54,033 nucleotides of DNA from Candidatus Binatia bacterium (GTDB lineage: Bacteria > Desulfobacterota > Binatia > UBA9968 > JAJDTQ01), in assembly GCA_022823055.1 (NCBI GenBank), contig JAJDXX010000164.1, positions 1 through 54,033 of the forward strand, read 5' to 3'. The first letter of the stretch is position 1. Each line of letters starts with the position of its first letter. Below are positions 6,202 to 47,015 of the stretch, in pieces. The translations under genes were made by a program, and so were the position numbers. The notes beneath the pieces are model-generated. The model was given only the letters and a program-made list of their open reading frames with translations, was not told the origin of the DNA and searched no databases.

Positions 6202-7308
6202 ATGTCCCAACAACGCATCATCGACGCCGACGGGCATGTGATGGAAATCGACGACGAGCTTCGCGACTACATCGGCGGTCCGTACGCTGAACTGGAATGG
6301 CACCGGTCCTACAGTTTCTGGCCGGGCCTTACCATGGACGGCTACCTGCGCTCGTTGAGACAGCCGGGCGGCTGGGTCGGCGGCGGCACCGGACCCAACG
6401 CCGGGCATTGGCTCGACTTCCTCGACAAGAACGGCATCGAGCTGACCGTGCTGTACCCGACCCAGGGGCTCACTCACGCGGCGATCCGGGACCACGAATG
6501 GGCCATCACCATGGCACGGGCCTACAACGACTGGCTGCACGACCGCTTCATGCGCGTGAGCCCGCGCCTGGTGGGCGTGGCGCTGCTGCCCATCCAGGAC
6601 ATCGACGAGGCCGTCAAGGAGCTTCGCCGGGCCGTCGAGGAGTTGGGAATGGTGGGCGCGGTGCTGCCTTCCGCCGCCCCGGGCGGGAAGCTCTTCAGCG
6701 GACCCGACTTCTACCCCTTGTGGGAGGAGGCCCAGCGGCTGGACGTGCCGGTGTCACCCCATGGCGGCATGAGCTTTCCCGACCTGGGCATCGACGACAC
6801 CCGGAACTTCATGGTGGCGCACACCCTGGAGCATCCGTTCGCGCAGTTCCGGCAAATCGTGGCGATGATCTGTGAAGGCGTGTTCGAGCTGTTCCCCAAG
6901 CTGCGCTTCGGCGTGTTGGAGTGCGGCGCGGGCTGGGTCCCCTACCTGATGGACCGCCTGGACGAAGAGTACGAGCGCAAGGGGCACTACTCGCCGAACT
7001 GCAAGCGCAAGCCCAGCGAATACTTCCGGGAAGGCAACATTTACTTCGCCGCCGAGGTAGAAGAGACGCTGCTGCCCGAGACCGCCCGCCTGGTGCCGGA
7101 GCACACGCTCCTCTGGGCTTCCGACTATCCCCACGAACGGGACCAGCGGGACTTCAGCGAGGACATCCCGCACCTGCTGGGGCGCGACGACCTCAGCGAC
7201 GAACTGAAGCACAAGATCCTGTTCGAGAACCCGTTGCGGTTCTACCCGCGGCTGCGGGCGCGGCTGGATGCCACCGCGGTGGCGTCGGCGGAGGCGGCCG
7301 TTAGCTGA
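6202..7308 (+). CDS. Amidohydrolase (ACMSD-like, COG2159 type)
   Basis: A 368-residue TIM-barrel metal-dependent hydrolase or decarboxylase. Start 6202 follows GGGAGAAGG; the reading frame extends upstream to 6133 without a credible ribosome site. The N-terminal metal-binding motif D-A-D-G-H-V is at 8-13. A histidine lies in PHGGMSF near residue 186. The late aspartate is in [10 protein letters not shown], followed by the common ENPLRFY end. Relatives include 2-amino-3-carboxymuconate semialdehyde decarboxylase and many catabolic amidohydrolases; the true substrate is unknown. Its stop overlaps tail-to-tail with the thioredoxin gene on the opposite strand. Confidence 0.88.
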
Positions 7309-8170
7309 ACAGCACCTTGGCCATCTCCGAGCGGAAGCGGTCGGCGAGTTCGTTCCGCCCCAACACTTCGAAGATCTGCACCATGGCCTTGCGGGCGCCG
7401 TCGTCCTCGAAGGCGCGGTCCTGTTTGAGCACCGCCAGGAATTCTTCGAGGGCGGCCTCGTAGCGCTCTTCGGCGGCCAGCGCCTGGGCCAGCCGGAAGC
7501 GGAGGTCGAGGCGATCCGGGGCCGCCGCCAGTTCCTCGCGCAGGGACTCGGTGTCGGCGCCTTCGCCCGCGCTGAGTTTCTGACGGGCGATCAGTCGGTC
7601 GGCCTCGTTTCGTTCCGGGTCACCCAAGGGAACTCGTTCAAGCATGGACAGGGCGCGTTCCTCATCCGTCTCAAGCAGTCCCCGCCCCAGTCCCAGGAGC
7701 GCGCCGGCATGGTTCGGCGCCTCCTCCAGCACCTGCTCGTAGATGGCCAACGCACTTTCCGCATCACCCTCGGACCACAATTGATCCGCCTCCGCGGTCA
7801 GCTCATCCTCGCGCGAGGGCACCACCCGCTCCAGGATCTCGCGCACGCCCGTTTCGGGCAGCGCCCCGGTGAACTCCGCGGCCAGACCCCCGTCCCTGAA
7901 GACCTTGACCGCCGGGATCCCCTGTATCCCGAAGGCGGCCGCCAGCTCCTGGTTCTCGTCCACGTTGACCTTGGCCAGGAGAAACTTCCCGCCGTATTCC
8001 TCGGCGAGCCGCTCCAGCACCGGACCCAGTACCCGGCACGGGCCGCACCACGGCGCCCAGAAGTCCACCGCCACCGGCGTCTCCCGGGAGCGCTCCAGCA
8101 CGCGCGCCTCGAACTCGGACTGGTCGACGTCGAAGACCAGCGCTTCCATCCCTTCTCGAGAACCCTCCAT
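7301..8170 (-). CDS. Thioredoxin-TPR protein (YbbN/CnoX type)
   Basis: A 289-residue cytoplasmic protein. An N-terminal thioredoxin domain (about 10-115) has an intact WCGPC active site at 41-45, followed by TPR-like helices (about 125-285). This domain order is that of YbbN/CnoX, which combines chaperone holding with redox activity; E. coli CnoX has a degenerate active site, while here both cysteines are present. The start is uncertain: 8170 or an internal ATG at 8149. It lies 52 bases downstream of the OsmC-like gene on the same strand and could supply electrons to it. Confidence 0.9.
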
Positions 8171-8222: not shown

Positions 8223-8708
8223 CTACTTCCTGCTCGTATCGAAATCCGCTCCGTTGAGCGTCACCCGCGTCTCCACCGGCGTCGGATTCTTGACCGTCTG
8301 CATGACGTAGCAGCCCTGCTCCGAGTTGCGGATCACCGCGGCCACGCGTTCCGGAGGTTCGTCGGATTCCACGTCGAGCTTCGTCTCGACGCCGACGCCC
8401 TCGGCCTGCACCGTCTCCCGCAACACCGAGCCCTCGTTTCTGAAGCGCGCGGTCACGTGCACGCGCGCCTTGCTGATCTTCACCTTCATCATTTCCCCGT
8501 ACCGGGAAAGCTGGGTGAGCAGTCAGAATCCGATGGACAGCGCGAAGTACGCCATGGGCGGCGGCGCCGTGTTGTCGCCACCGATGTGCCCGCCCTCGTC
8601 GCACATCATGGTGAAGCCCCGCGCCTCGCCGCGCTTCTGCTGCCGCTCCATCATCTCGGCGTCGGCCTCCATCACCACTTCGCGTTTGACGATCATGTCG
8701 TCTGCCAT
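8223..8708 (-). CDS. OsmC-family protein with in-frame UGA, probable selenoprotein
   Basis: Read with the single UGA (8523-8525, minus strand) as selenocysteine, this is a 161-residue OsmC/Ohr-family peroxiredoxin-like protein. The start at 8708 has a strong GGAGGT site. Residues 1-61 end in [13 protein letters not shown]. Residue 62 is the UGA, aligned with the family's first catalytic cysteine. The same frame runs on through [17 protein letters not shown] to a stop at 8223. The second catalytic cysteine is present in [10 protein letters not shown] (C133). There is no frameshift and only one stop. A hairpin follows the UGA. Automated callers would report a 61-residue and an 89-residue fragment, or only one of them. 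The alternative is a nonsense-mutated pseudogene. Sec-containing OsmC-like proteins are known from metagenomic selenoproteome surveys. Confidence 0.8.
8492..8509 (-). promoter_or_regulatory. Candidate bacterial SECIS hairpin
   Basis: In the mRNA, UUUCCC and GGGAAA form a perfect 6-bp stem closing the hexaloop GGUACG. It begins 13 nt after the UGA, and the loop begins 19 nt after it. Bacterial SECIS elements lie inside the coding region just 3' of the UGA and have an exposed G/GU in the apical loop, which agrees with this arrangement. Folding was judged by eye. Confidence 0.6.
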
Positions 8709-8782
8709 ATAACAACCTCCAGGAACTTTGTGGCACGAAGGGTAGCCGATAGACCCGGCATCGTCAATTTGTGTGGCAATCC

Positions 8783-9280
8783 ATGGCCAAACGACACCCC
8801 GCACTGATACCGCTTTCCCACGACCACCACCACGGCCTGGCGCTGGCGTTGCGCTGCCGCAAGCATGCCCTCGGCCAGCTCAACCCGGGCGACCCCGCGG
8901 CCATGGAGGCATGCGCGGCGCAGGCATCCCGCTTCTTCAGCGAGAACCTGCAAGCCCATTTCGAAGCCGAAGAGACGGTGCTCTTTCCGCTGATGGCCGC
9001 CCATGAAGAATCACGGGAGTTGGTGGCCCGGCTCCAAGGCGATCACCGGAAGTTCCGCGAGATGGTCGCCCGGTCCGGCGATGCGGCAGGCAGGCGCAAG
9101 TTCCTCTTCGACTTCGGCGACCTGCTGGAGCAGCACATCCGCAGCGAGGAGCGCCACCTCTTTGCCGCTTTCGAGTTGCACATACCGGAGGCGGACGCCG
9201 CACGTGCCGGCTTGGAGATCAAGCGAGTGCTGGAGCGGGATCAGCCCTCCGGCTCCGATGCGAAACCCGACGCGCCATGA
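8783..9280 (+). CDS. Hemerythrin-like (HHE domain) protein
   Basis: A 165-residue four-helix protein with the iron-ligand pattern of HHE/hemerythrin domains: HDHHH at 13-17, HFEAEETVLFP, DHRKF and EQHIRSEERHLF. Such proteins bind a di-iron centre and sense or handle oxygen, nitric oxide or iron. ATG at 8783 is preferred; a GTG four codons upstream (8771) is possible, and neither has a strong ribosome site. It is divergent from the OsmC-like gene, with about 75 bases between them. Its stop overlaps the start of the next gene (ATGA), so they are translationally coupled. Confidence 0.87.
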   Translation: MAKRHPALIPLSHDHHHGLALALRCRKHALGQLNPGDPAAMEACAAQASRFFSENLQAHFEAEETVLFPLMAAHEESRELVARLQGDHRKFREMVARSGDAAGRRKFLFDFGDLLEQHIRSEERHLFAAFELHIPEADAARAGLEIKRVLERDQPSGSDAKPDAP

Positions 9281-38878: not shown

Positions 38879-39391
38879 TTGTCCATTCAGCAGATCGCCC
38901 TGGGCGACATCGTGGCCACGCACGGCGTGGCCGGCTGGGTGCGCCTGCGGCTGTTCAACCCCGAGGGCCGTACGCTCTACTCGAGCGCGCAGGCGGAGTT
39001 GACGCGCGGGGAGGGCCGGCTCACCGTTGACGTGGAGCAGGCCAAGCCCCACCGAGGGTTCGCGCTCTTGAAGCTCCGAGGCATCGACGACATGGACGCG
39101 GCCCGCGAACTGGTGGGGTACCGGCTGTCGGTGCCCGGCGAACGGCTCGCCCCGCTCGGCTCGTCCGAGTATTACTACGCGGAAGTGGTGGGTTTCGAGG
39201 TGCGGGACGCCTGCGGCGAACGCGTCGGCACGGTATCTCGGATATGGGCGAAGCAGGGCGGCGACCTGCTGGTGGTGGACGGCGCCGAGCGGGAACACCT
39301 CGTCCCCGCGGTCCGGGAGGTGATCCGGCAAATCGACGTCGTCGAAAGAACCATCACCATCGACCCGCCCGACGGGCTCCTGGACCTCTGA
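38879..39391 (+). CDS. rimM: Ribosome maturation factor RimM
   Basis: A 170-residue two-domain protein. The N-terminal domain has LGDIVATHGVAGWVRLRLF. The PRC-barrel domain (about 95-170) has YYYAEVVGFEV and LVPAVREVIRQIDV. It binds S19 and helps 30S maturation. TTG start. Confidence 0.94.
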   Translation: MSIQQIALGDIVATHGVAGWVRLRLFNPEGRTLYSSAQAELTRGEGRLTVDVEQAKPHRGFALLKLRGIDDMDAARELVGYRLSVPGERLAPLGSSEYYYAEVVGFEVRDACGERVGTVSRIWAKQGGDLLVVDGAEREHLVPAVREVIRQIDVVERTITIDPPDGLLDL

Positions 39392-44702: not shown

Positions 44703-47015
44703 TCAGGTTCCCAGGCCAAGAAAGTCGAACTTGAAGCCGACGCTCGTCCGGTCCGGGTTGGTGCGTTGCTCCACGGACAGGGTCAAGGTCCAGCACCGGC
44801 ACTCGGAGAGATACTTGATCCCCAGCTCGTTTTGCGCCCACCGGCCCGCCGCGCCGTCGTAATTGCCGTCGTAAAGCAGCAGCATCCGGTCCGTCGCCCG
44901 CAGCACGGCGCCGGCGTGAAAGCCGTTCAAGGCATCCCGCGGCATGCATCGTGGGTCCGAGGGGCAGTCCGCCAGGAGATCAAGATCGGCGTGGCGCGCG
45001 AGGGGCGACAGGACGTTCGCCCGAATGAACCGATACCCGAGGGACACGCTGCTGGGTCGCTGGAAATCCCGGTCGGACACCCTCGTTTCCACGGGCGCGA
45101 CATCGGAAAGCGAGACCTCCAGGGCGGCCCGCCGGAGGTTCCACGGACCGGGTTCCATGCCCATTTCCAGGGACGCGTACAGGCGTTCGACGGGATCCAG
45201 TCGCACGCCGAAGCCCACGTCCGCGAGACCGTCCTCACCCGCGCGCGCCTTGTCGACGTCGAGACTGGCCGTGACAGAGGCGCGGGCGAAGGGCGCGACG
45301 GCCGGCGGGGACGCGCCCCCGTCGGGTTCCCGGGAGCCGCCGTCGTCCGGAGCCGGCCCTCGCTTCCCCCCGAGTGCGCCCCAGAAGCGGTTGTTCAATG
45401 CCACCGTCAGCAGGTTGCGGCGCCGGACGCGGTCGACCGGATCCCAGATCGGCAGCTCGTCCTGATCGGTCGCGGGAATGAACAGGTACTCCACCGCGGG
45501 CTCCAGCACGTGCCGGACTCGGTTCCAGCCACCCAGACTCCAGTCGTAGGTCCGGCTCAGCGCCGTGGTCAGTCGCCAGCCGAGTTCCACCAGCTCGCGC
45601 GAACCGTTGCGGGCCAAGCCGCCGGTGTCGCCGTGGCGCGCGGCGGTGAACCCGCCTTCGATCGAATCGAGCCGGTAGAGGGTCTCGCGCAACGCCACGC
45701 GGGTGTCCATGCGGAAGTGACGCACCGGAGCCGCGCGCCAGGTGAGCTCGGGCCGCACGTCCACCCGCAAGCCGTCCGACCCCTGCTCGCGCCGGTAGTG
45801 GGTCAACCCCACGTCCCACTCGAGGTCGAGACCGTACCCGAGCCCACGGCCGCCGGTGAGGGAAAGGTGGGGGACCCGGTGCAGCGCGTGCTCCTGCGGC
45901 TGGACGAGGTCCTGGACGTAGTCCACCCCCCCGGTCAGCACCATGTCCGTCCCATGCCACCGAAAGCCGAGTCGTGACGCGCTGTACCGGCTCGAACGCA
46001 GGACGTCTTCCTCTTCCGCCCCGGAGACGAAGAACTCCGCCAGCTCCCGCGGCGCGACGCTGTCGCTGTACAAGGCGATGTCGCTGAACGTCGCCCACCC
46101 GGCCGGAAGCCGATGACGGTGGGTCCAGCGCGCGCTCCAGCGGTCGAGAGGAATCGCCGGGTCCGCGATGCCGGTGTCGTGAGCGGGGGTCGATCCGCGC
46201 ATGCGCTCGCTGAAGTATGAGAGCTCCAACCTGCCGGCGGCGTTCCGGTCCAGGATGGTGCGATACTGCGCGCTCATGCCGACGCGCGTCCTCGACTCGA
46301 CGGCGAACTCGAAGGTGGCGTCGTTGCTCTTGTCCAGCGCCCAGAAGAACGGTTGCCGGTAGAGGAACCCGTCGCGGCGGGACCAGCCGAAGGAAGGTAT
46401 CAGGAACCCGGTGGTGCGCTCCGTGAGATAGGGGAACGACAGATAGGGCAGGTACAGTACCGGGACGTCGTAGACGTAGAAGGTGGCGTCATCCACCACC
46501 GCCTTCGCCCCCTCCTCCAACCGGAGCCTGCCGGCGCTGATGCGCCACGGCGAAGCGCCCTCTTCGCACAGGCACGTGGTGAAGCGTCCGTCGCGGATCT
46601 CGTAGGTCTGCCCCGTGAATTTCTCTACCCGGCTTCCGCCGAGACGGATGCCCCCCTCCTGGATGAACATCTCGGCGTCGCGTATCGTGGCCGTCTCGTC
46701 ATCGAGGTTCATCTCCAGCTCGGCGGCCCGAAGCCGGTAACGGGGATCCTCGAGGCGCACGGATCCCTCCGCCCGCAGCGTGCGCCGAGCATGGTCGAGA
46801 TCCACCGTGTCGGCGCCGAAGACCGTCGCACCCCGCCGGATCTCCACGCTGCCGCTCGCCCGGACCGTGTCGCGGGTCGTCTCGATGGAGTCTTCCGCCG
46901 AGACCTCGATGCGTTCTCCGGTTCCCGGGGACTGGGCGTGAGCGAGAGCGACGGGGAGGAGGGTGCACCAGCACGCCGCCGCCCACGCCGCCAGATATGG
47001 ACGCCACAGAAGCAT
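44703..47015 (-). CDS. lptD: LPS-assembly protein LptD
   Basis: A 770-residue outer-membrane protein. The signal peptide ends ALAHA. The OstA/LptA-like jellyroll (about 35-150) has VRASGSVEIRRGATVFGADTVDLD. The beta-barrel has PVLYLPYLSFPYLTERTTGFLIPSFGWS. LptD with LptE inserts LPS into the outer leaflet. Cysteines occur in TTCLCEEG, CPSDPRCMP and CRCWTLTL and could form disulfides, as in other LptD proteins. Its presence implies an LPS-bearing envelope. Confidence 0.94.
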   Translation of the reverse strand: MLLWRPYLAAWAAACWCTLLPVALAHAQSPGTGERIEVSAEDSIETTRDTVRASGSVEIRRGATVFGADTVDLDHARRTLRAEGSVRLEDPRYRLRAAELEMNLDDETATIRDAEMFIQEGGIRLGGSRVEKFTGQTYEIRDGRFTTCLCEEGASPWRISAGRLRLEEGAKAVVDDATFYVYDVPVLYLPYLSFPYLTERTTGFLIPSFGWSRRDGFLYRQPFFWALDKSNDATFEFAVESRTRVGMSAQYRTILDRNAAGRLELSYFSERMRGSTPAHDTGIADPAIPLDRWSARWTHRHRLPAGWATFSDIALYSDSVAPRELAEFFVSGAEEEDVLRSSRYSASRLGFRWHGTDMVLTGGVDYVQDLVQPQEHALHRVPHLSLTGGRGLGYGLDLEWDVGLTHYRREQGSDGLRVDVRPELTWRAAPVRHFRMDTRVALRETLYRLDSIEGGFTAARHGDTGGLARNGSRELVELGWRLTTALSRTYDWSLGGWNRVRHVLEPAVEYLFIPATDQDELPIWDPVDRVRRRNLLTVALNNRFWGALGGKRGPAPDDGGSREPDGGASPPAVAPFARASVTASLDVDKARAGEDGLADVGFGVRLDPVERLYASLEMGMEPGPWNLRRAALEVSLSDVAPVETRVSDRDFQRPSSVSLGYRFIRANVLSPLARHADLDLLADCPSDPRCMPRDALNGFHAGAVLRATDRMLLLYDGNYDGAAGRWAQNELGIKYLSECRCWTLTLSVEQRTNPDRTSVGFKFDFLGLGT

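Follow-up and report, generated by a model that had tools for sequence, protein, structure and literature searches.

Does the minus-strand OsmC-like gene of this locus carry a disabling stop codon, or does its in-frame UGA encode selenocysteine? Automatic ORF calling splits the gene, here called Sec-OsmC, into two fragments. A sequence-only reading of the window (the whole stretch of 54,033 nucleotides that was analysed) had proposed that both belong to a selenocysteine-containing OsmC-like protein. The analyses described below support this interpretation, which passed the refutation tests applied to it.

One OsmC frame with an internal TGA

The features of the gene are as follows:

8223..8708, minus strand: Sec-OsmC gene, 161 codons plus a TAG stop, with one in-frame TGA
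8716..8720, minus strand: putative ribosome-binding site GGAGG, recognised from its sequence
8601..8603, minus strand: codon for C36, a third invariant cysteine, which precedes D37
8523..8525, minus strand: TGA codon 62, read as selenocysteine, at the first (peroxidatic) cysteine position of OsmC/Ohr proteins
8492..8510, minus strand: predicted SECIS stem-loop inside the coding sequence (UUUCCC, loop GGUAC(G), GGGAAA), with synonymous silence and covariation
8310..8312, minus strand: codon for C133, the conserved second cysteine, which aligns with a Cys in 3cje

The frame runs from an ATG at 8708-8706 to a TAG at 8225-8223, and the TGA at 8525-8523 is its sole interruption. The two fragments were correctly described as parts of one frame that lie one UGA and ten sense codons apart, the next in-frame ATG being at 8492, and read-through gives a product of 161 residues. 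The good ribosome site noted before the upstream start is also present, as the GGAGG at 8720-8716 lies 7 nt from the ATG. The assignment to the OsmC family holds as well. The Pfam OsmC model matches residues 44-147 of the joined product with 59.2 bits, and the NCBIfam model NF041052 ('OsmC-related (seleno)protein') matches it over model positions 2-144 of 144 with 184.5 bits, for a cut-off of 95. Residue 62 aligns with a Cys ('CVMTQ') of the solved OsmC-like protein 3cje, and C133 with its second Cys ('GCFLEQ'). Position 62 (Sec, written as C), C133 and C36 are all invariant in an alignment of 34 rows that includes Cys forms. The UGA thus occupies the site of the first redox cysteine and the second is kept, as had been claimed.

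The whole window was scanned for TGA codons between two coding-like stretches of the same frame. Sec-OsmC was the only candidate found in which a single protein-family domain extends across the TGA, which argues that the TGA of the OsmC frame is not there by chance. Another in-frame candidate, the TGA at 44703-44705 on the minus strand, was rejected as an ordinary junction of two genes that share one frame; judging from their sequences, we take these to be an LptD-like gene followed by a secretin-like gene. The TGA at 39389 on the plus strand separates coding-like same-frame stretches of 175 and 441 codons and probably marks where one gene ends normally and the next begins in the same frame.

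Conservation of the TGA and of the stem-loop behind it

A search with NF041052 covered 58 related genomes. TGA-containing matches were found throughout the genus (nine of nine members, with the source genome counted) and across most of the order, and sampled genomes of other orders of the class gave weaker matches devoid of stops, or no match. Codon-by-codon comparison placed a TGA at position 62 in every close homologue, all from one bacterial order; among these close relatives, no other stop codon occurs at the site and the frame is kept. The aligned site is a Cys in 10 of the 10 more distant, TGA-free homologues inspected, which provides the Sec/Cys pairs that the sequence-only reading had suggested looking for. 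An example is LQYFIASIGF-C-MFSQ versus LQYFVASIGF-U-MLSQ, the latter from a second Sec paralogue. Between near relatives, synonymous substitutions predominate upstream as well as downstream of the TGA (for locus L025, 9 synonymous and 3 non-synonymous upstream, 15 and 3 downstream). The part 3' of the UGA is therefore under protein-level selection and appears to be translated in the same frame.

These data bear on two alternative explanations. The first is that of a pseudogene, an OsmC gene broken by a nonsense mutation; UGA is normally a stop, and ORF calling does yield two fragments. However, the identical TGA has been kept in the genus and the order, in more than 25 genomes, with mostly synonymous change around it, and the synonymous silence and covariation of the stem-loop described below also argue against decay, so that we reject a pseudogene as very improbable. 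The second is a sequencing or assembly error for TGC or TGT at 8523-8525, given that the source genome is a draft assembly (4.27 Mb, 253 contigs, 97.6% complete). Yet TGA is found in independent assemblies of the genus and the order, including the single-contig genome G004. Such a misreading is excluded in practice, and its probability is negligible.

The hairpin proposed after the UGA was upheld by comparison of relatives, not by single-sequence energy, which is unremarkable (z -0.88) and counts against the selenocysteine reading. The first base of the UGA and the start of the stem are 16 nt apart, and the stem-loop CUUUCCC-GGUAC-GGGGAAA coincides exactly with codons 67-72 (8510-8493 of the window). 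The synonymous difference, calculated from codon pairs for the same amino acid in 31 homologues, has a median of 0.50 at the other codons and drops to 0-0.08 in these; of all seven-codon windows along the gene, those that begin at codons 68 and 67 score lowest. The letters of the stem change in pairs between subfamilies, UUUCCC with GGGAAA and UGACGC with GCGUCA, and 85.7% of the cells are paired. The covariation score of 0.474 exceeds that of every slid register; it compares with 0.169 in shuffles (0/500), a control that ignores relatedness, so that this count is not a probability. Further support comes from the synonymous silence and from the slid registers. The stem is absent from the Cys homologues. 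The Cys homologues L065-L069, which belong to the same order and in which C36, residue 62 and C133 are all aligned with those of Sec-OsmC, differ from it by having a Cys at position 62 and no SECIS stem; they share 20-29% identity with it and form a different paralogue group. In PMC1088965, the bacterial SECIS elements of OsmC-like selenoproteins are described as having a small apical loop with a G, just 3' of the UGA. The Sec-OsmC stem-loop directly follows the UGA and has a G in its apical loop, and on these features and the comparisons above we regard it as a bacterial SECIS element.

Additional TGA-containing OsmC genes were observed. A second one, on contig C60 of the source genome (335-766; L002/L016), has a single TGA, which falls at the site equivalent to codon 62 (U-M-L-S); its SECIS stem, UGACGC/GCGUCA, differs from that of the first gene yet covaries. 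In another genome, locus L083 (G024:C205:3600-5100) harbours two such genes in tandem on one strand, of which the upstream copy is ~60% identical to Sec-OsmC of the window and the other ~41%.

Selenocysteine decoding genes

The selenocysteine genes, whose presence the sequence-only reading had left to be checked, were found in the source genome. The selA (511 bits), selB (387 bits, cut-off 242) and selD (373 bits) genes lie side by side on contig C247, and a tRNA-Sec gene (73 bits; anticodon TCA according to ARAGORN) is on contig C248. The selD gene (L015, 6066-6992, G000:C247) itself has an in-frame TGA (AGUAAK), and the selenophosphate synthetase is therefore also a predicted selenoprotein.

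A clear SelA was detected in 27 of the 30 genomes that hold the TGA form above the cut-off. The three others, G020, G029 and G010, count against the selenocysteine reading. G020 is devoid of the selABD cluster and has a tRNA-Sec; in G029, a contig end holds a fragment of SelD. In G010, rated 100% complete, selA, selB, selD and tRNA-Sec are all absent above the cut-off, which also counts against that reading; its TGA form (L049, G010:C113) has an intact SECIS. As selA, selB and selD adjoin in the source genome, one missing contig can account for the loss of all three, but G010 stays an exception.

A third alternative is that the UGA is suppressed by insertion of another residue such as Trp or Cys, independently of selenium, or that translation terminates there and restarts at the ATG at 8492. 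The position of this ATG, ten codons on, would suit a restart, and termination at UGA always competes to some extent with selenocysteine insertion. Against this stand the full set of sel genes, the presence of the stem in TGA forms and its absence from Cys forms, and the Sec/Cys exchange; a restart would also cut the central helix 52-73 of the modelled fold. We consider this alternative very unlikely. The sequence evidence argues, with a very high degree of confidence, for a redox protein of the OsmC family in which SelB and tRNA-Sec insert selenocysteine at UGA codon 62 with the help of a SECIS directly downstream, and the apparently broken gene is almost certainly an intact selenoprotein gene in which the UGA specifies an active-site Sec.

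Family, fold and putative redox partner

The selenoprotein family to which Sec-OsmC belongs is represented by an NCBIfam model of its own and was already recognised in 2005. In that year, OsmC-like selenoproteins with a UxxT motif were reported from Sargasso Sea DNA (Zhang, Fomenko, Gladyshev; PMC1088965), and they appear again in 2008 and in reviews of 2022 and 2026 (PMC2398784, PMC9312934, PMC13188914). The U62-L-L-T65 sequence fits the published motif, with the in-frame UGA aligned with the catalytic Cys. The family (PMC1088965; NF041052, OsmC_like_Se) shares with Sec-OsmC the OsmC domain, the Sec in UxxT, the SECIS directly downstream with a G in a small apical loop and the Cys homologues at the site; we see no essential difference between them. 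The family was first reported from marine metagenomes, whereas here it is found in genomes related to MAGs labelled Ca. Binatia/Deltaproteobacteria and with an adjacent thioredoxin-TPR gene. A limited literature search returned no paper on Binatota together with selenoprotein, none on OsmC, Ohr or lipoyl with selenocysteine and, in the text portions available, no earlier mention of multi-copy Sec-OsmC in the order or of the conserved thioredoxin-TPR neighbour.

An AlphaFold model based on 34 sequences (mean pLDDT 85.5, pTM 0.76) has an OsmC-type fold, with residue 62 within a long helix (52-73) and C133 where helices 119-132 and 134-139 meet. In Foldseek, OsmC/Ohr proteins are the top matches, and the PDB matches include 2onf, 1lql and E. 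coli OsmC; their TM-scores are moderate, ~0.5-0.7, which counts against the assignment. Like the OsmC/Ohr thiol peroxidases (E. coli OsmC, 1qwi; P. aeruginosa Ohr, 1n2f), Sec-OsmC combines the OsmC fold with two conserved redox positions, the first of them in a long central helix. It differs from them in that Sec replaces the first Cys, and identity is low (~10-20%). The Ohr equivalog model NF052637 gives 13.8 bits versus a threshold of 240, and the passages of the cited literature hold no report of peroxidase activity for the OsmC-like Sec subfamily. By analogy, Sec62 and Cys133 are best read as a redox pair for OsmC/Ohr-like peroxide or disulfide chemistry.

The genes next to Sec-OsmC include a possible partner:

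7301..8170, minus strand: thioredoxin (WCGPC)-TPR protein, CnoX/YbbN-like (Pfam Thioredoxin, TPR_19 and TPR_20), candidate redox partner

This gene lies 52 bp downstream of Sec-OsmC on the same strand. Its product has the domain composition of CnoX/YbbN chaperedoxins, an N-terminal thioredoxin domain and C-terminal TPR repeats, with a putative holdase role. Of the 29 homologous loci compared across the order, 24 have a homologue of it that follows Sec-OsmC on the same strand at a distance of 14 to 1070 bp; a contig end truncates at least one of the five loci devoid of it. Because of this conserved position, we propose the CnoX-like protein as a putative partner or reductant of Sec-OsmC, which is a reasonable assumption. 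On the other side, a divergent hemerythrin-like gene (8771-9280, plus strand) adjoins Sec-OsmC, and its placement on the opposite strand is conserved within the genus.

In the mechanism that we propose, SelB and tRNA-Sec would decode UGA codon 62 at the signal of the SECIS stem-loop within the coding sequence. Judged from OsmC/Ohr chemistry, the most likely target of Sec62 would be a hydroperoxide or some other oxidised compound. Cys133 may resolve the resulting selenenic acid as a selenenyl-sulfide, to be reduced in turn by a dithiol donor; the adjacent thioredoxin-TPR protein is the best candidate for this donor or for a partner. More tentatively, and with less than even confidence, the two proteins might form a dedicated pair in this order, in which a selenium-dependent peroxidase or reductase either feeds a chaperedoxin or is recycled by it, with several Sec-OsmC paralogues per genome specialised for different substrates.

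Reading the UGA as selenocysteine restores a gene model that is broken into two by standard ORF calling, and it reveals that Sec-OsmC has been retained, often in multiple copies, across much of one bacterial order. The thioredoxin-domain neighbour makes the substrate and the reductant of this OsmC-like selenoprotein family testable.
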